From Spirochaetales bacterium Spiro_02 (GTDB lineage Bacteria > Spirochaetota > Spirochaetia > Sphaerochaetales > Sphaerochaetaceae): 43,533 nucleotides of DNA. Below the pieces are notes generated by a model, which saw only the letters and a list, made by a program, of their open reading frames with translations, did not search any database and was not told where the DNA came from. Made by a program: the position numbers and the translations under genes. The DNA lies in the NCBI GenBank assembly GCA_001604275.1, contig LVBD01000028.1:1-43533 (forward strand), written 5' to 3'. Position 1 is the stretch's first letter. Every line of letters starts with the position of its first letter. This document shows positions 33,659 to 43,360 of this stretch, one piece after another.

Positions 33659-33742
33659 GCCCAGATGGCGGAATTGGTAGACGCGCTAGGTTCAGGTCCT
33701 AGTGGTGGCAACACTGTGCAAGTTCGAGTCTTGTTCTGGGCA
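33659..33742 (+). tRNA. tRNA-Leu (anticodon CAG)
   Basis: The acceptor stem GCCCAGA (33659-33665) pairs with TCTGGGC (33735-33741), discriminator A at 33742. The anticodon stem CTAGG/CCTAG encloses the loop TTCAGGT with anticodon CAG at 33693-33695. A long variable arm marks a class II tRNA, and the T arm is GCAAG-TTCGAGT-CTTGT. CCA is not encoded. The 3' half of such genes is a common integration site, and the character of the DNA changes just after it. Confidence 0.97.
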
Positions 33743-33961: not shown

Positions 33962-34520
33962 ATGATTGACTATAAGTAACTTCTTGATCTCAAGAAGCGG
34001 CGACTCTCTACACATACGATTTACGGCAGTTGGATCTGGAGTTTGTCCATGATCTAGGTGAACTTCATTTCGTGAGGAAAAAAACGGAACATCATTCTCT
34101 GGGGTGCACCGGGAATGGGAAAATTTTGGCTTGACGAAGCGCTTGAATGTCGGGCATGCGAGGAAGGAATCCGGACAAAGTGGATCACTTGCCCCGTGCT
34201 CTGCTGTAATTTGGAAAAGAAAAGAAGGGATGGGAACAACGCCTTGGACGCAAGGCTTGCATATTACGCCAAGTTCCCGTCGCTTTATATTGACGAGTTT
34301 TCGACTGTAAAAAGCCAAGACGATTATCTCATCCAGAAGTTCTTAGACAAACAATGCCAGAAAAGGCAAAGTACCATTGTCTGTTGCAAAAGCCCTCTGG
34401 AGAACTGGACGGAATTGTTCGCGATTTAAGAGCTTCGGACAATCCATCAAGGGCAGACTGCTTCAAGGGGGCAAGACATTGAAGATGAAAGGCATGGATC
34501 TGCGTACATACAAGCCCGAT
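33962..34520 (+). pseudogene. remnant of an IS21-family istB ATPase gene
   Basis: Between about 34060 and 34430 a frame reads KKRNIILWGAPGMGK (Walker A of IstB-like transposition helper ATPases), then YYAKFPSLYIDEFS (Walker B) and QSTIVCCKSPLENWTELF, which matches the IstB pattern near the sensor region. A stop at about 34428 interrupts it; a shifted frame continues as GRLLQGGKTLKMKGMDLRTY to a TGA near 34523. Upstream the N-terminal part (MIDYK from 33962) is broken by stops and shortened. The lysine of Walker A is followed by Phe instead of Thr/Ser. The gene is clearly decayed and no istA is seen. Confidence 0.7.
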
Positions 34521-34612: not shown

Positions 34613-34663
34613 GACGACAAAGAGGGATTTGGGCTCAAATGACAATAGGAATCAAAAAATGTC

Positions 34664-34777
34664 TGAACACATTTGAACACGATTAAATCCGCATCTACAG
34701 CTTGTTTCTAGTTTTGAAAATAAAAATTCGTGTTCTCGAACTTAACTCTTAAATTTAGAAACAGAATGTGCTATAAT
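34664..34777 (+). promoter_or_regulatory. promoter and putative operators of the acquired cluster
   Basis: The extended -10 TGCTATAAT places TATAAT at 34772-34777; the -35 is weak (TTAAAT, 34749-34754). Upstream, TGAACAC occurs twice at a ten-base interval (34664-34670, 34674-34680), and the inverted GTGTTC (34730-34735) is part of GTTC-TC-GAAC (34732-34741). These could be binding sites of the XRE-type regulator encoded next. Confidence 0.6.
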
Positions 34778-34812
34778 GATTTATAATTGTTGAGTTGCTT
34801 GAAAGAGATAAA

Positions 34813-34832
34813 CCCTTGTTGGAAACAAAGGG
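34813..34832 (+). other. leader hairpin before the XRE-type gene
   Basis: CCCTTGTT (34813-34820) pairs with AAC-A-AAGGG (34824-34832, one bulged A) around GGA. It lies in the 5' leader, ten bases before the ribosome site GAGGAG (34843-34848). Confidence 0.4.
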
Positions 34833-34856
34833 GTACGAATTTGAGGAGCACAATGT

Positions 34857-35099
34857 ATGGTTATCAGCTATAAAAAATTATGGAAGTTGCTTATTGACAA
34901 AGATATGAAGAAACAAGACTTGAGGACGGCTGCGCAACTCAGTTCCTCCACTGTGGCGAAACTCACGCACGGAGAGAATGTCAGCACGGCTGTTCTCTTG
35001 AAGATATGTGCCGCTCTTCAGTGCGACATATCTGATATCATGGAAGTCGTGCCGGAGGGGAGTCCCGCATCTGAGGAACAGCCACAGGAAAGGATGTAA
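34857..35099 (+). CDS. XRE/Cro-type HTH regulator
   Basis: This 80-residue protein is a single helix-turn-helix domain of the Cro/C1 type (HTH_26-like): YKKLWKLLIDKDMKKQDLR, then SSSTVAKLTHGENVSTAVLLKICAAL and CDISDIMEVV. Such small regulators often head mobile defence clusters and control their own transcription. GAGGAG (34843-34848) is eight bases before the ATG; a nearby ATG at 34853 is out of frame and short. Nine bases separate it from the helicase gene, so the whole cluster is probably one transcript. Confidence 0.9.
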   Translation: MVISYKKLWKLLIDKDMKKQDLRTAAQLSSSTVAKLTHGENVSTAVLLKICAALQCDISDIMEVVPEGSPASEEQPQERM

Positions 35100-35108
35100 G
35101 ACACCGAT

Positions 35109-37994
35109 ATGTTTGATTTTGGAAGTGCAAACGGGGGACAGCGAAAAGCGATAGCTACCGCAGAAGGTCCCGTCCTAATTACTGCGGGACCGGGAACGGG
35201 CAAGACCTACACACTTGTCCAACGTGCGATTTACCTTATAGAGGAATGCGGCGTAAAGCCTGAAAGTATCTTCATTGCTACCTTTACGGAGAAGGCAGCA
35301 AAGGAACTGATTACAAGAATCACGAATGAACTGTCGGACCGTGGCATCGTGACGAACATCAACGAAATGTACATTGGCACGTTCCATTCGCTATGCCTTC
35401 GTATTTTGAAGGAGAATCTTGAGTTTACGAGGCTCCGGAGGAATTACCGTCTCTTGGATGCTTTTGACCAGCAGTACATGGTGTTCCAGAACATCTACCG
35501 TTTCAGGAATATCCCGGAAATAGAAATTGCCCTACCGAACGGCGGCGCATGGAAACAATCGGAAGCCATCTGCAACTATGTGAATAACCTCTCGGAGGAA
35601 TTTGTGACGCCGGAAGAGCTGATGTCTGACGCTGACCTTTCGATTGCCGCGCTCGGACAGATGCTCAAGGAATACCGTGATGTCCTCACGGAAAACAATA
35701 TGATGGACTTCTCGTCTATCCAGATCGAAGCCTACCACTTACTCTGTGACCACGCCAATATCCTTGAAGAGATGCGTTCCAAGGTCACGTACATCATGGT
35801 CGATGAATACCAAGACACGAACTTCATCCAGGAACAGCTGGTATTTCTCCTCGCAGGAGACCGCAAGAACATTTGCGTGGTCGGTGACGATGACCAGGGT
35901 TTATACCGCTTCCGTGGAGCGACTATCCGTAATATTCTGGAGTTTCCGCAAAAGTTCGGTGACGGCGAATGCCGCATCATTCCGCTGATCATCAACTACC
36001 GCTCAAACAGTGACATCGTTGACTTCTACAACGAGTGGATGGCTACCACGGACGGTGCGAAGTTCAAGTTCCGCTGGGAGAACTTCCGCTATGATAAGAA
36101 AATCAAACCGCATGAAAAAACCACGCTCCACAGCTCGGCGGTTGTGAAACTTGCAGGTGTGGAAGATACGGACGAGTGGCACGAGAAAATCTTGCGCTTC
36201 ATAAACGACCTGAAAGCATCCGGAAAACTCATGGACTATAATCAGATAGCTTTTTTGTTTAATTCAGTGAAGCATCCGCGAGTTACGGCTCTTGCCCGTT
36301 TCCTGGAGAAGAACCACATAAATGTATATTCACCGCGTTCGGATATGTTCTTCCAACGTGGCGAGACAATGCTTGCCATCGGCTGTCTCATGCTCATGTT
36401 TCCGCGCTATGTACAGGGTTTGGAGAACGGTGACTACACTTTCCTCCAACCAGAACATCTGACCTATTACCGAAACTGCATCATGACGGCAAACGAGTAT
36501 CTCACAAAGCCGGAGAACGTTGAACTTTTGAAATGGATACGGCGTAGAGGTAAAGACCATGTCGGTCTGACCGGCGCAACGGACTATGCCTATTGCGGGC
36601 TGATGTATCAGCTGTTTGAATTCCAGCCTTTCGCAGGGATTCTTGATACAGAGATAGATGTCGGCATAGTCGATATCCGCCCGGCTCGTAATCTTGCAAA
36701 GCTGACGCAGATCATTGGCAAGTTCGAATACCTCCACCGAGTGGACGTCTTGGATGCTGGTAAGTACCGTGGCAAACGTCGTATCGATCAGAACACCGAG
36801 ATGCTCTTTAATCTGTATCTCCGTCTGCTCTATGATGGTGGAATCACCGAGTATGAGGATGATTCGGAGTACGCTCCGAGCGGCTGCGTTTCCTTCCTCA
36901 CCATCCACCAATCCAAGGGCATGGAGTTTCCGGTTGTCCTCGTGGATTCTCTGGCGAATGTACCGAGAAAAAACACAAATGATCTGATGATGCAGATCGA
37001 AGGGCGATACTTCAAGCGTCCGACGTTCGAGCCATATGAGGTCACGAAATACTTTGACTTCTGGCGTCTCTACTACACGGCGTTCTCACGCGCACAGGAT
37101 TTGCTGATCCTGACCTGCTGCGAGGACAAGAGAACGCCCAGCAACTATTTCAAAGACATCTACGGGAAACTGCAATCTGTGGACAGTCCCGAATTTGATT
37201 TAAGGGAGTTTGATTTCAAACCGATAAAGGATGTGAACATTAAGAATACTTACTCGTTCACATCACATATCACGGTTTATGAAACCTGCGCCCTGCAGTA
37301 CAAATTTTATAAGGAACTGGAATTCATGCCCGTCCGTGCGAACGCTATGCTTTTTGGTACGCTCGTGCATGAGACGATAGAGGATGTACACCGTGCCGCC
37401 CTGTGCCACGAGGAACAGACGATTACGGAGGAGAATGTGAGCCGCTGGTTTGACTCAAACTATGTGTCGCTCACAAAAACCGAGCATATATATCTCGCCG
37501 GACCTCAGCGCGAAGCGGCTCTAAAACAGGTGCTACACTATGTGGAAAGGCAGCACGGCGACTGGTCACAAATCCAGCAAGCGGAGGTTGATGTTTCCCT
37601 GGTCAAGCCGGATTATATTATTGAGGGAAAGGTTGACTTGATTCGTGGCGAAGGAGATACCGTTGAGATTGTAGATTTCAAATCTCAGAGAAAACCGGAT
37701 ATGGTGAAGGATCAAGAGCAGCTTGAACGATATCGACGGCAGCTCCATATCTACGCTCACCTCGTAGAGGAACGCACCGGACGAAAGGTCAGCAAAATGC
37801 ATCTCTACTATACCGGCGAAGACGGCGGAGTGCCAACTATCACATATCCGTACACGAAGTCCGCTGTGGAAGGCACGATAGCGGTATTCGATGATACGGT
37901 ACATAAGATTATGAAGAAGGATTTCCACCGCTGCGCCAAAGACCCAAAGGTATGCAGCGAGTGTGACTTCCGGTTTTACTGCAGGAATAAATGA
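35109..37994 (+). CDS. UvrD-family helicase fused to a RecB/AddB-like nuclease
   Basis: This 961-residue protein is a superfamily 1A helicase with motif I AGPGTGKTYTL (about residues 26-36), Ia ATFTEKAAKEL, II DEYQDTN (near 232), III DDQGLYRFRGA, V TIHQSKGMEFP (near 600) and VI YTAFSRAQD. The C-terminal third is a PD-(D/E)XK nuclease: EGKVDLIRGE and VEIVDFKSQ give the acidic residues and Lys. A Cys in TCALQYKFY plus three in CAKDPKVCSECDFRFYC match the AddB-type iron-sulfur staple, with one Cys to spare. It resembles an AddA helicase joined to an AddB nuclease, distinct from the addAB pair of the core genome. It is the second gene of the acquired cluster, upstream of Mod and Res. Confidence 0.9.
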   Translation: MFDFGSANGGQRKAIATAEGPVLITAGPGTGKTYTLVQRAIYLIEECGVKPESIFIATFTEKAAKELITRITNELSDRGIVTNINEMYIGTFHSLCLRILKENLEFTRLRRNYRLLDAFDQQYMVFQNIYRFRNIPEIEIALPNGGAWKQSEAICNYVNNLSEEFVTPEELMSDADLSIAALGQMLKEYRDVLTENNMMDFSSIQIEAYHLLCDHANILEEMRSKVTYIMVDEYQDTNFIQEQLVFLLAGDRKNICVVGDDDQGLYRFRGATIRNILEFPQKFGDGECRIIPLIINYRSNSDIVDFYNEWMATTDGAKFKFRWENFRYDKKIKPHEKTTLHSSAVVKLAGVEDTDEWHEKILRFINDLKASGKLMDYNQIAFLFNSVKHPRVTALARFLEKNHINVYSPRSDMFFQRGETMLAIGCLMLMFPRYVQGLENGDYTFLQPEHLTYYRNCIMTANEYLTKPENVELLKWIRRRGKDHVGLTGATDYAYCGLMYQLFEFQPFAGILDTEIDVGIVDIRPARNLAKLTQIIGKFEYLHRVDVLDAGKYRGKRRIDQNTEMLFNLYLRLLYDGGITEYEDDSEYAPSGCVSFLTIHQSKGMEFPVVLVDSLANVPRKNTNDLMMQIEGRYFKRPTFEPYEVTKYFDFWRLYYTAFSRAQDLLILTCCEDKRTPSNYFKDIYGKLQSVDSPEFDLREFDFKPIKDVNIKNTYSFTSHITVYETCALQYKFYKELEFMPVRANAMLFGTLVHETIEDVHRAALCHEEQTITEENVSRWFDSNYVSLTKTEHIYLAGPQREAALKQVLHYVERQHGDWSQIQQAEVDVSLVKPDYIIEGKVDLIRGEGDTVEIVDFKSQRKPDMVKDQEQLERYRRQLHIYAHLVEERTGRKVSKMHLYYTGEDGGVPTITYPYTKSAVEGTIAVFDDTVHKIMKKDFHRCAKDPKVCSECDFRFYCRNK

Positions 37995-38010
37995 GGAAGG
38001 GAGTGATGAC

Positions 38011-38829
38011 ATGGCTAAACATCGAGTAAGGAAAAACAACATCATATACATCATTCCCGATGACGAGTTTTTCAGGAAGTGGAAAAACGATGAGACTTTT
38101 ATCGATGCGTACGGTCGGCTCATGAATCGCAAGCCGCAACGGATTTTGAAGGAACTTAAACACTCTGTAGAAGATGCACCTATGGCCCAGCAAAGAACCT
38201 CTGTGCCGCCCGTTACTACCGCCAGAAAAAACTCACCCGTTAAAGATTATCTCAAGGACACCGTCCGAGATATAGCGATGGAAAACATCGAACCCGCCAT
38301 CGATCGGGCTGTAGATACATTCTTTTATGAGGTACTACCGAATGTATGGCATGAGCATATTGTGTCGTTCTACCATCAGGCAAAAGAGGCACTTACCACA
38401 AAGGGACTGAAGGCCGATGTTGTCCTTGCACAAACAAAGTCGAGTACAGGTGCGGTGGTAAAACAGCCGAAAGCAGGAATCAAGATAACGCAGGAAGAGG
38501 CTGATGCCGAAAACCAAAAAGTCCTGTATCACTGGCTTGGTATGCTGAGTAGTCTCAAGAAACTACACGAAGCCGGAGAAATCGATATTGATTCTACTCT
38601 GCCACAGCTGACAGACCTTATAATGCTGAAATGTGTAAATGGCTTTCTGAGCGAGAATCCAAATCTGCTTGAAACGGATAAATACATCGTGCTTCACAAG
38701 CTACTTGGAAGCGATTTATATGTGGAACAGCAACTCGTTCCTATTAGAGCTACCAAAATAACAACTATAGCCTCGAAATACGGATATGACGCAAGAAACG
38801 ATAAAATGGAGGGTACCCATAATGGATGA
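38011..38829 (+). CDS. unknown protein between the helicase and methyltransferase genes
   Basis: I do not recognise this 272-residue protein. It is hydrophilic with no membrane segment. The N-terminal 45 residues (NNIIYIIPDDEFFRKWKND) look like a small globular unit; a Pro/Thr/Ser-rich stretch follows (about residues 58-75), then a largely helical region with many Leu and Lys. The start at 38011 has AAGGGAG seven bases upstream; the open frame begins 16 codons earlier without one. It ends inside the mod gene (8-base overlap), so it is an integral member of the cluster. Its place between helicase and methyltransferase suggests an adaptor or specificity partner; that is inference. Confidence 0.75.
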   Translation: MAKHRVRKNNIIYIIPDDEFFRKWKNDETFIDAYGRLMNRKPQRILKELKHSVEDAPMAQQRTSVPPVTTARKNSPVKDYLKDTVRDIAMENIEPAIDRAVDTFFYEVLPNVWHEHIVSFYHQAKEALTTKGLKADVVLAQTKSSTGAVVKQPKAGIKITQEEADAENQKVLYHWLGMLSSLKKLHEAGEIDIDSTLPQLTDLIMLKCVNGFLSENPNLLETDKYIVLHKLLGSDLYVEQQLVPIRATKITTIASKYGYDARNDKMEGTHNG

Positions 38830-40717
38830 GCATTTTACTTTTGAATTTGAACAGAGTCCCACAATCAAGGGCTTCCCTGAACTTCGCTGGACGGGCAAGC
38901 GCCCTTACCGTTCCACGCAGTATTATCCTGCGCAGTTGAGGGAGTCTTACGGTGAGGAACAGAACGGATGGATTAACAAGATTTTCTGGGGAGACAATCT
39001 CCAGGTCATGAGCCACATGCTGAAGGAGTACCGTGGGCAGGTTGACCTCATCTACATTGATCCTCCATTCGATAGCAAAGCGGATTACAAAAAGAAAATT
39101 GACCTTAAGGGTGTCGGAAAAGCCGAAAGTGACAGCACTTCGTTTGAAGAAAAGCAGTATGGGGATATTTGGACAAATGACGAGTACCTTCAGTTCATGT
39201 ATGAGAGGCTTCTCTTAATGAGAGAACTGCTTTCCGACAAGGGATCCATCTTTATGCACTGCGATTGGCACAAGAACCATCACCTTCGTTGCTTAATGGA
39301 CGAAGTATTTGGCCCCTCAAATTTCGTGAATGAAATCGTATGGTGTTACTATGGACCCGGTTCGCCTGGAATGCGCCAATTTAATAGAAAGCACGATAAC
39401 ATTCTTTGGTACAGCAAGACTTACAATGCTTGGAAATTCAACGCCGATGCAGTGCGTATTCCCCATGATGAGAAAACTACAGGAAACTTTAAGCAGGGAC
39501 TTCGTGGATCTGGATTTATTGCTGGCGATTACAATCTGGCAGACGGAAAAATCCCAGAGGATTGGTGGGAAATGGCAATAGCAGGACGTTACCCAAATGA
39601 TGGTGTAAAGCGAGTTGGATATCCTACAGAAAAGCCATTTAAACTCTTGGAGAGAATCATTAGTGCCACAACTGATAAAGGTGATATAGTGGCAGACTTT
39701 TTCATGGGCAGTGGTGTTACGCAAATGTGTGCAATGAAGCTCGGCAGACGCTTTATTGGTGCGGATATCAACCTCGGCGCAATCCAAACCACTACCAAAC
39801 GTCTGCTATCCGTAGCGGAAGAACTGAAGCCCGTTCATAAGCCTGTGACCTACGAGATGGTAAAGCCACAGCTTTCGGTGACTGCGGAGGAATCCGCCCC
39901 TTACCTCGCTGCGGCAAGTGCAGGAGGAGATACCGAACTGAGTGCCGAAGACCGTAGTAAAGTTATCGACTTTTTTAAGGCAAAGGGCATGGATACCTCG
40001 TCTCTAGAGGAGGACGTGAAGTACACGGGCTTTGAGGTTTACAACGTAAATAACTACGACTTCTTTCGTAATCCTGTGGAAGCTCGCGACCTGCTGATTG
40101 CCGCCCTGGAAATCCAGCCGTTCCCGCAGAGCGATGTCTGGGACGGCGAGCTGGACGGCAGAATGGTTAAAATCATGCCCGTCAACCGCATCGCTACCAA
40201 AGCTGACTTAAAGGAGCTTCTTGCCAATCTTCCGTACAAGACATACGAGAAGCGTAAGGAGGAGAATCCGAATCAGCCCGTGGAGCGGATAACCATCGTC
40301 TGCATGGGACACGAGCCTGACCTCAAAGGCGCGCTGGAACAGGAACTTTCCGACTATAAGATTGATGTTCAAATCGTGGATATTCTCCGTGATAAGGCGG
40401 ATATTCAGTTAAAGCGCGACTCCGAGGCGGAAATCGTCCGTGAAGGTGACAAGCTGGTAATCCGCGCTTTCTACCCGATGAACTTGTTGCAAAAACTTTC
40501 TCTTCAGAAGGAGTACGTGGAGGATTGGCGCCAGCTGGTTGATTCCATCATGATTGACTGGAACTACGATGGCGTAGTCATGCAGCCGACCGTGACCGAT
40601 GTCCCCGGCAAGAACGAGATGGTAAAGGGCATCTACGACATCCCGGAGGGTTCCGGCACGATTAAAGTCAAGATAACAGACCTGCTATCCGAGTCGCTGG
40701 AAGTGGAGGTGATTTAA
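38822..40717 (+). CDS. type III-like DNA methyltransferase (Mod)
   Basis: This 631-residue protein is an N4/N6 amino-methyltransferase of the beta class: motif IV DPPF (residues 80-83, IYIDPPFDS) comes before the SAM-binding motif I DFFMGSGVT (about 292-300), and YPTEKPFKLLERII stands in front of motif I as usual. The likely target-recognition part lies between (about residues 165-265). Beyond residue 335 a C-terminal region of about 300 residues has no motif I know. GGAGGG is eight bases before the ATG. The gene overlaps the preceding gene by eight bases and abuts the res gene with no gap, so Mod and Res should be made together and act as a modification-restriction pair. Confidence 0.9.
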   Translation: MDEHFTFEFEQSPTIKGFPELRWTGKRPYRSTQYYPAQLRESYGEEQNGWINKIFWGDNLQVMSHMLKEYRGQVDLIYIDPPFDSKADYKKKIDLKGVGKAESDSTSFEEKQYGDIWTNDEYLQFMYERLLLMRELLSDKGSIFMHCDWHKNHHLRCLMDEVFGPSNFVNEIVWCYYGPGSPGMRQFNRKHDNILWYSKTYNAWKFNADAVRIPHDEKTTGNFKQGLRGSGFIAGDYNLADGKIPEDWWEMAIAGRYPNDGVKRVGYPTEKPFKLLERIISATTDKGDIVADFFMGSGVTQMCAMKLGRRFIGADINLGAIQTTTKRLLSVAEELKPVHKPVTYEMVKPQLSVTAEESAPYLAAASAGGDTELSAEDRSKVIDFFKAKGMDTSSLEEDVKYTGFEVYNVNNYDFFRNPVEARDLLIAALEIQPFPQSDVWDGELDGRMVKIMPVNRIATKADLKELLANLPYKTYEKRKEENPNQPVERITIVCMGHEPDLKGALEQELSDYKIDVQIVDILRDKADIQLKRDSEAEIVREGDKLVIRAFYPMNLLQKLSLQKEYVEDWRQLVDSIMIDWNYDGVVMQPTVTDVPGKNEMVKGIYDIPEGSGTIKVKITDLLSESLEVEVI

Positions 40718-43360
40718 ATGGCTGTAAATTTCGAATCGGACTTAGCCTTTAATCAGCAGTTGTGGTACTACTACTCCACAAACCGCGGAAAGATTCGTTC
40801 CCGTTATAATGACCTTACAAGAAAATTCCTCGCCTACAACGATAACGAAGAGAATCCCCACGCCTTTCTGCGTAAGCCGCAGTTTGAGGCGTTGGAGATG
40901 TATGTCTTTGTGAAGGAATTCATGAACAACAAGCAGGTCTATGAGATGTTCAATGACTGGCGTCATAAGAGAGGCCACTTCTCCAATGCATCATACTATG
41001 CCATCGATAAAGGTGGTCAGATTCGTCTCTTTGATGCTCCGACCGAAAAGCAGACCGACACACTCTTTAAGCAGATGAAGAAGTACCGTGAGAACTATCC
41101 GAACTACATCTATGCCCTCACGATGGGACTTGGCAAAACCATACTCATGGCTACCTGCATCTTCTATGAGTTTTTGCTTGCGAAGAAGTATCCGAGGGAT
41201 CAGCGCTTCTGTCACAATGCCCTCGTGTTTGCGCCAGACAAGACCGTCCTTCAGTCGCTCCGGGAAATCATGACCTTTGATAAGACGAAGGTCATACCGC
41301 CGGAGTATGCCCGTGTGCTTGATTCAAATATAAAGTTTCACTTTCTGGACGAAACTGGAACTATTCTGCACACGATCGATGATTCTGATTTTAATATCAT
41401 CATCTCGAACACGCAGAAAATCATCGTAAAGAAAAAGCGTAAGGAAACATCTGCAGCAGAGATTCTTTTCAGCGGCTCTGGTTCTTTGCTTTCCGCTGTC
41501 TACAGTGGTGCCGGTGGTGCCGAAGACGAGGATGATGTATGGGATGATACCTCGCTGATGGAGAACCAACGTTTCAAGAAGCTCTGTCGTCTTCCGCAAC
41601 TCGGCGTGTACGTCGATGAGGCGCATCATCTCTTCGGAGCAGACCTCGAAAAACAGATCAGGTCGAGTGGTGCAAATAAGACGAGTCTCCGCGACACCAT
41701 CAATCTGCTTGCGGAAAACACATCCATTGTGGCTTGCTACAATTATACGGGAACGCCGTATGTCAAGAATCAACTTCTTCCGGAGGTAATCTATGCCTAC
41801 GGCCTGAGGGAATCCATCCAGAACGGCTTCTTAAAGGATGCCGATCCGCTTGGTTTTGAGAACGTCAAGAGCTATGAATTTCTTACCGCCGTGGTAACCA
41901 CATTCTGGGAGAGGTACGGCAGTCAGACCTACGAAGGACTGAATCCAAAACTTGCCATCTACGCAGCAGGCGTGGAGGAAGCGGCTACAGAGGTAAAACC
42001 CGCACTTGAGAAGATACTCGCTAAACTCGGTATCCCAGCATCAAAGATTCTTCTGAATGTCGGCGATGTGAAATACACAAAGAACGATGACATCAGAAAT
42101 TTCAACAACCTTGACGTGCCTGGTACGGAAGGCAACGAAAAGCAGTTTATTATCCTCGTTGAGAAAGGCAAGGAAGGGTGGAACTGTCGTTCTCTGTTTG
42201 GCGTGGCGCTTTTCCGAAGTCCGAAGTCGAAGATATTCGTACTCCAAGCTACGATGCGCTGCCTTCGTGCAATCACAAACGAGCGTCTGACGGCTACGGT
42301 GTTCCTGTCCAAAGAAAACTACGACACCCTGGACGATGAACTTCATAAAAACTTCAATATGGAGATCAAGGACATCAAGAATCCGTCCAATGACGACCGC
42401 CACAAATACCAGGTGCGTGTTCTGCCGCCACCGAGGACGATTACCCTCAAGCGTGTATGGCATGAGTACACGCTGCACGAAAAGGAATACGCCGAGCCTG
42501 TGGACTTCAATCTGGTGGATGCTGACCTTTCCAAGTACGCCAGCATCATGTACGAGCGTGACAGCCTTGCCCGCGATACCACAGTAAAGGAAAAGAACAT
42601 CGACTATCTCCAGGAGAACATGAAGTTCAGCGAGTTTTCCCTCGCGGGAGAAATTGCTCGTTATCTGAACATTTCGTGTATCCTCGCCGCGAGAATCCTT
42701 CGCGAATCCGTGGACGGAATCGACACGGTTCTTAAGGCGGTCAACCGCTATAACGCTGTCCTGTATGACTATATCATCCCGGCTGTGTTTCAATCGCTCT
42801 TTGACATCACCTCAAAACTGAAGACTGAAGACAAGGAACTGGTACTCCTGCGTGAGCCGAAGGATGCCGGTTACTACGAATTCTCCGCTAAAGATGACCT
42901 TGTGCTTACAAACCGTTATCCGGGCTTCACGCCGGAGCAACTTAAGAAAAGCTTCCACGCCGACACCTACTGCTTTGACTCCATCCCGGAAAAGGAATGC
43001 TTTATGCAGTACATCACAAGCGGTAAGGTCAAGGAGGTCTATTTCACGGGAATGTTCACATCCAACCAAGGCGATCTCTCCGTACACTACTACGATCCCG
43101 AATCCGGCAGAATCCGTCAGTATTATCCTGACTTCCTTGCGAAGATGGTAGACGGTTCCTATCAGCTGATCGAAGTCAAAGGAGACAACAAAATCGACGA
43201 TACCATAGTTAAGGCAAAACAGGCAGCCGCCGAAGAGATGGCTGTGGCAAGCGGAGTCAAATACTTAATGTATGCTGGCAGCCAAGTTATTAACACTCAT
43301 GTTTTAGAGGAGGATTCAGATTTACACACCGTGTGGAGGCAATTTCAAAATAGGCTCTGA
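40718..43360 (+). CDS. type III-like restriction enzyme Res subunit (DEAH helicase-endonuclease)
   Basis: This 880-residue protein has superfamily 2 helicase motifs: I TMGLGKTILM (about residues 135-144), II DEAH (300-303), III YTGTP (343-347) and VI QATMRCLRA. A C-terminal endonuclease site is visible as YYPDFLA then LIEVKGDN (about 802-823), the PD-(E)XK arrangement of type III Res. A Gly/Ser/Ala/Asp-rich insert (FSGSGSLLSAVYSGAGGAED) lies between motifs I and II. Motif VI lacks the usual Gly (QATMR). In type III systems such subunits cut after ATP-driven communication between sites, together with Mod. It starts directly after the Mod stop and ends the recognisable cluster in this window. 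Confidence 0.9.
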   Translation: MAVNFESDLAFNQQLWYYYSTNRGKIRSRYNDLTRKFLAYNDNEENPHAFLRKPQFEALEMYVFVKEFMNNKQVYEMFNDWRHKRGHFSNASYYAIDKGGQIRLFDAPTEKQTDTLFKQMKKYRENYPNYIYALTMGLGKTILMATCIFYEFLLAKKYPRDQRFCHNALVFAPDKTVLQSLREIMTFDKTKVIPPEYARVLDSNIKFHFLDETGTILHTIDDSDFNIIISNTQKIIVKKKRKETSAAEILFSGSGSLLSAVYSGAGGAEDEDDVWDDTSLMENQRFKKLCRLPQLGVYVDEAHHLFGADLEKQIRSSGANKTSLRDTINLLAENTSIVACYNYTGTPYVKNQLLPEVIYAYGLRESIQNGFLKDADPLGFENVKSYEFLTAVVTTFWERYGSQTYEGLNPKLAIYAAGVEEAATEVKPALEKILAKLGIPASKILLNVGDVKYTKNDDIRNFNNLDVPGTEGNEKQFIILVEKGKEGWNCRSLFGVALFRSPKSKIFVLQATMRCLRAITNERLTATVFLSKENYDTLDDELHKNFNMEIKDIKNPSNDDRHKYQVRVLPPPRTITLKRVWHEYTLHEKEYAEPVDFNLVDADLSKYASIMYERDSLARDTTVKEKNIDYLQENMKFSEFSLAGEIARYLNISCILAARILRESVDGIDTVLKAVNRYNAVLYDYIIPAVFQSLFDITSKLKTEDKELVLLREPKDAGYYEFSAKDDLVLTNRYPGFTPEQLKKSFHADTYCFDSIPEKECFMQYITSGKVKEVYFTGMFTSNQGDLSVHYYDPESGRIRQYYPDFLAKMVDGSYQLIEVKGDNKIDDTIVKAKQAAAEEMAVASGVKYLMYAGSQVINTHVLEEDSDLHTVWRQFQNRL

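Follow-up and report, generated by a model that had tools for sequence, protein, structure and literature searches.

A probable phage-borne UvrD-Cas4 and type III restriction-modification operon carrying one embedded accessory gene in Spirochaetales bacterium Spiro_02

Type III restriction enzymes require two inverted unmethylated sites for cleavage, and their methylation is strand-specific. The canonical EcoP15I and EcoPI consist of a beta-class methyltransferase, Mod, with an exchangeable recognition region and an ATPase-nuclease, Res, and are without a helicase-nuclease. In the m4C type III systems described by Murray et al. 2021 (PMC8259958), a third gene encodes a helicase-like ATPase that was not needed for methylation and was undetected in the partly purified active enzyme. 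Fusions of UvrD and Cas4 adjoining Mod and Res in varied contexts were predicted to serve in defence by Hudaiberdiev et al. 2017 (PMC5704561, Fig. 6); the passages of that paper dealing with these loci make no mention of an embedded accessory, a 272-aa protein or carriage by phages together with IetAS. Independent defence genes within a single restriction operon are known from DarTG2 (PMC12255303), located behind a small regulator, and from TgvAB (PMC11411939), both in type I operons and both experimentally tested. The helicase/methylase/ATPase trio Hma (Payne et al. 2021, PMC8565338) is also known for embedded defence genes.

The window investigated here is an entire contig of 43,533 nucleotides (G000:C28:1-43533). 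An ORF check confirmed the five co-directional genes at 34857-43360 on the forward strand that the initial annotation had claimed, in the order XRE, Hel, Unk, Mod, Res. Gaps of 0-16 bases or overlaps had been described, and these were borne out with 9 bp between XRE and Hel, 16 bp between Hel and Unk, an overlap of Unk and Mod, and 0 bp between Mod and Res. The sequence ends 173 bp past Res and the island is seen up to that point only. We regard this cluster as likely to be a mobile, phage-borne UvrD-Cas4 and type III restriction-modification operon that carries one embedded accessory gene. The same five-gene arrangement, in unchanged order, was found in two uncultured Clostridia contigs, L002 and L003, with dN/dS values of 0.02-0.42, which is more than chance would give, and all five genes are under purifying selection.

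Hel (35109..37994, +; 961 aa) was identified by domain models as the fusion of a UvrD-type SF1 helicase with a Cas4/AddB-like PD-(D/E)XK nuclease, the nuclease part occupying approximately 37263-37985. The single ORF matched UvrD-helicase (5e-75), PDDEXK_1 (2e-22) and a Cas4 model (7e-13), and PcrA and AddA models also match. The motifs AGPG.GKT, DEYQDTN, GDDDQ and DFK and a C-terminal cysteine cluster (C..CD....C) were invariant in 12 relatives, and the cluster may represent a Cas4/AddB-like Fe-S site. Res (40718..43360, +; 880 aa) combines an SF2 helicase-like ATPase with a C-terminal TnsA-like PD-(D/E)XK nuclease (~43076-43270). The TnsA-like model scored above its cut-off (1.9e-6) and ResIII just under it, and the protein carries MGLGKT, DEAH and PDF...EVK, the SF2 ATPase and PD-(D/E)XK nuclease expected of a type III Res. 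A phmmer search of Res against the solved structures in the PDB gave no significant match, and in this, as in its TnsA-like nuclease domain, Res differs from the canonical type III enzymes.

Mod (38822..40717, +) is a beta-class amino-methyltransferase (N6_N4_Mtase, 7e-53) in which DPPF (motif IV) precedes FMGSG (motif I) with a variable region in between, the arrangement of a type III Mod. Its PDB matches include the Mod of EcoP15I (3.7e-20), CcrM and MboIIA. The longest ORF begins at 38786, but the ATG at 38822 is the more likely start, because GGAGGG is found at 38808-38813 and the plasmid relatives align only from approximately residue 12; with this start the Unk-Mod overlap shrinks to 8 bp. 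When relatives were aligned, the invariant residues of Hel, Res and Mod fell where motifs of helicases, nucleases and methyltransferases are expected. The variable target-recognition region of Mod (39312..39694, +) gave no DNA alignment to L002. Codons 161-320 were only 31-47% identical to L002 and L003 at the amino acid level, compared to 78-100% in the remainder, and the recognition region has thus been exchanged between relatives. In the human-gut phage NatCom_11578, on the other hand, the recognition region was 97% identical (Mod as a whole 93%) despite saturated synonymous sites, and the Mods of the window and of NatCom therefore probably read the same site.

By content, the locus belongs with the UvrD-Cas4, Mod and Res loci of Hudaiberdiev et al. 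2017: in the parts of that paper covering them, these share with the window the fusion of an SF1 UvrD helicase with a Cas4/pfam12705 nuclease beside type III Mod and Res, and sometimes HTH regulators, and both the fusion and the adjacent Mod and Res are found here. In the systems of Murray et al., too, a third gene that encodes a helicase lies immediately 5′ of mod; this helicase is, however, of SF2 and without a nuclease motif, unlike the SF1 UvrD and PD-(D/E)XK nuclease of Hel. Two further assignments were rejected. Hma resembles the window in its trio and its embedded defence genes, but HmaB is by definition an m5C methyltransferase, whereas the methylase here is of the N6_N4 beta class, and no Hma model matched Res. 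Gabija was discarded since the GajB models match just the UvrD part and the operon contains no GajA (OLD-type ATPase/TOPRIM).

The initial annotation took the helicase-nuclease to be a working part of the system and proposed a search for conserved adjacency with Mod and Res. The outcome was the opposite of what would speak against that claim. Hel was present in all 14 plasmid records holding a full-length (at least 80%) Res, a number that includes near-duplicates and corresponds to about nine distinct lineages, with hosts among the Firmicutes, the Alpha-, Beta- and Gammaproteobacteria and the Bacteroidota. The order Hel-Mod-Res was seen in 4/4 plasmid loci examined in full. In the sampled genomes, which are species representatives and many of them draft assemblies, Hel was linked to Mod and Res in 9 of the 11 with a Res at E<=1e-100. 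These nine include G192, in which the contig ends within Hel, and G589, which was at first a candidate for Mod and Res without Hel and was rejected as such: Hel lies on the same contig and strand, ~8.5 kb upstream, with defence genes inserted before Mod. No Hel match at 1e-100 was detected in the remaining two, G1061, an incomplete genome with Res at a contig edge, and G469, in which the identity of Res is no more than 33-37%. No Res relative turned up at 1e-100 when 345 genomes from the phylum of G643 were surveyed without a positive control. The distances of Hel and Res across eight lineages were highly correlated (r=0.96; as high in 0/5000 permutations). From the linkage and this correlation it follows that Hel, Mod and Res are a real unit, inherited together, and the helicase-nuclease is thereby supported as a working part.

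Upstream of the genes, a conserved leader (34626..34856, +) was delimited by alignment of five loci and is the putative promoter/operator of the operon. It contains GAACAC at 34665 and 34675, GTGTTC at 34730 and an extended -10, TGCTATAAT, at 34769. The strong promoter region of the initial annotation was upheld in part: a two-hexamer promoter scan of the forward strand found none and missed the extended -10, whereas this element and the GAACAC/GTGTTC repeats are largely kept among the relatives. The first gene, XRE (34857..35099, +), encodes an XRE/Cro-type regulator of 80 aa (HTH_26, 2.6e-20; VanU-like). A tRNA-Leu(CAG) (33659..33742, +) just 5′ of the island is a possible border. Between the tRNA and the operon, in the stretch where relatives have IetAS, lies the remnant of an IS21-type IstB ATPase (34115..34429, +; Pfam IstB_IS21, 3.9e-8), perhaps a trace of IetAS removal or of island insertion.

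The divergent IetA-IetS pair (AAA ATPase and subtilase) was found 5′ of XRE in L002 (1180-4619), L003 (3058-6497), L017 (1-1801) and L024 (4953-8392). IetAS and the restriction operon thus appear as a phage-borne two-system island with one common regulatory gap. Homology between the window and its relatives begins at ~34626, just outside IetA, and IetAS was therefore either lost from the window or never there. Hel of the window was 97% and 90% identical to those of L002 and L003, respectively, and the corresponding values were 87% and 72% for Unk and 95% and 90% for Res. NatCom_11578 (L017/L025) and the viral contig L024 both bear the island with IetAS. In L024, phage recombination genes flank the other side of the island, and L002 is 99.4% identical to L024 across 5.6 kb, for which reasons the island is probably cargo of gut temperate phages. 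That the cluster was acquired, as initially annotated, is supported by the presence of the same island in phages and by its composition, which had been described as unlike that of the upstream genes and is 44-49% G+C compared to mostly 55-59% upstream of 33 kb, with the fall starting from ~34 kb. The G192 contig and a viral contig have the same length (30609), which was dismissed as coincidence, only short Mod segments of the compared stretches being aligned at 70-73%.

Another viral contig, L005 (10001-13145; IMGVR_UViG_3300038673_000372), carries genes for a phage DNA polymerase, a primase-helicase and a ribonucleotide reductase. Here Mod is intact with a different recognition region, Res is cut after ~153 aa, Hel is absent, and Unk has lost its normal start (N-terminus) and last residues. 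This single case fits the capture of Mod by a phage for self-protection by methylation.

Unk (38011..38829, +) lies between Hel and Mod and encodes a 272-aa protein of no known family, predicted to be all-helical. It had no match in PADLOC, NCBIfam or PHROGs, and Pfam gave only a sub-threshold PASTA hit (E 0.04); the best PDB match (E 0.36) was at chance level. The AlphaFold pLDDT was 35 for the whole protein and 58 for its C-terminal domain, which makes the all-helical prediction one of low confidence. The dN/dS of Unk relative to L002 and L003 was 0.42 and 0.12, compared to 0.13 and 0.04 for Hel and 0.12 and 0.04 for Res. Being below 1, these values identify Unk as a real protein under constraint, though it changes approximately 3-fold faster. 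Unk was limited to one small clade of gut Clostridia and prophages, and Unk and Mod were kept together in L002, L003 and L005. A tblastn search at 1e-5 detected Unk in no further genome among 101 relatives or 139 members of the order, and the phage and plasmid records, NatCom included, gave no match. In the same slot, NatCom has a 246-aa protein with a transmembrane-like segment, which shares ~105 C-terminal residues with Unk at 29% identity (pairwise E ~1e-7); the common portion is the C-terminal domain of Unk at ~38485-38778. Weak matches of the NatCom protein in Clostridia, tryptophanyl-tRNA synthetase-like proteins and one RNase Y-like protein, were judged to be due to chance.

The slot between Hel and Mod is empty in most relatives. 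Where it is occupied, the content differs: AbiLi/AbiLii in G637, AbiH and DUF2971 on the opposite strand in G192, and in G589 (L059:3209-11646; G589:C199) an insert of ~8.5 kb with a metallo-beta-lactamase (LmuA/Avs1a models), a trypsin-like protein, a 911-aa unknown protein and several PIN-domain genes with small partners. On the Spirosoma linguale plasmid pSLIN01 (L036:2453-14505), UvrD-Cas4, a DUF6615-like pair, Mod, Res and ZorA-ZorB-ZorE (Zorya type II) are all co-directional. Other positions are also used, with PDC-S01 between Mod and Res in G1069 and G1041, and a D12 methylase with HerA after Res in G1156 and G637. In L052 (12811-16946) and L034 (1699-5873), which belong to different families, a D12-type methylase, a HerA-type ATPase and a ~445-aa protein were observed directly 3′ of Res, possibly a co-travelling system. 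The empty slot of G220 and the PDC-S01 of G1069 and G1041 accompany Hel and Res proteins that are 84-85% and 84% identical, and accessories thus turn over in an operon whose trio persists.

The initial annotation had also counted the unknown protein among the working parts of an extended system. This was not supported, in view of its absence outside one small clade, the slot being elsewhere empty or occupied by unrelated defence genes. Unk sits inside a defence operon at a position where its relatives hold such genes, and by the same logic of embedding as TgvAB and DarTG2 within type I operons, it is most readily seen as a fast-evolving accessory rather than a fixed part, and its position suggests that it is probably defensive. 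The window differs from those two cases in its type III/UvrD-Cas4 operon and in a candidate gene of no known family.

We infer the working of the operon as follows. Mod would methylate one base in a short site that is set by its exchangeable recognition region. Mod and Res together would bind unmethylated sites, move or slide using ATP, and then cut. Hel would load either at the DNA ends or where Mod-Res has engaged the DNA, and unwind and degrade the invader beyond repair, and the XRE protein would repress the operon promoter. Unk would be dispensable for the restriction reaction, a separate accessory whose likeliest role is that of an additional anti-phage effector or adaptor. More tentatively, and at rather long odds, Unk may found a small new family of embedded effectors of phage defence, in which a conserved helical C-terminal domain is joined to an exchangeable N-terminal half, a long helix in the clade of the window and a transmembrane helix in NatCom. 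The trigger for such a protein might be a phage that blocks the surrounding restriction enzyme or escapes it, and the protein might then attack the membrane or arrest the cell.

Other readings concern the part played by Hel. Type III enzymes function with just Mod and Res, the extra helicase was undetected in the active preparation of Murray et al. 2021, and the distant Res homologues (25-31% identity) of L020-L022 are without Hel. The locus could accordingly be an ordinary two-gene type III system with Hel and Unk as passengers of a shared defence island. This is improbable, since Hel is linked to and co-diverges with this Res clade across phyla, despite the kilobases inserted between Hel and Mod. 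As the third helicase of Murray et al. was not needed for methylation, Hel could be dispensable too, although that helicase is of SF2 and nuclease-free. It is also possible, if somewhat doubtful, that Hel is a general end-processing helper, a RecB/AddAB substitute borrowed by several systems and not specific to Mod-Res. In Priestia and Peribacillus, Hel relatives adjoin other Mod/Res clades, and in Annamia they stand apart from Mod and Res, from which such a general role may follow, and an ancillary role in several pathways is argued in the relevant passages of Hudaiberdiev et al. 2017; the parallel distances of Hel and Res within this clade speak against it.

For Unk, the overlap with Mod by a few bases and the joint retention of the two genes, which in L005 extends to a phage without Hel and with 153 aa of Res, would also agree with a fourth subunit or a Mod partner in this clade, one that stabilises Mod, tunes methylation or restrains Hel until restriction. 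We consider this unlikely. The closest trio of another family (L052, Hel 58% identical) has an empty slot, Unk evolves faster than its supposed partners, and in NatCom, where Mod is 93% identical, just a distantly related C-terminal domain is present. The loss of the normal start and last residues in L005 is, moreover, as expected for a by-product of Mod capture.

The reading of a phage-borne operon with one embedded accessory builds on a trio of Hel, Mod and Res that has been known as a prediction since 2017 and is not new; no experimental test of it was found in the literature searched. Embedding in restriction operons already has precedents in type I and Hma. As far as searched, Unk, the range of genes embedded in the trio, the phage carriage with IetAS and the phage that keeps Mod are new. 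Since the trio is co-inherited across phyla, it is a clear candidate for a restriction machine of three parts that cuts DNA and then degrades it. Versions of ~8 kb are found on plasmids of both Gram-positive and Gram-negative bacteria. A direct route to further defence genes is offered by the variable sites within the operon, and the phage with an intact Mod and broken neighbours is a natural test case for methylation as counter-defence.
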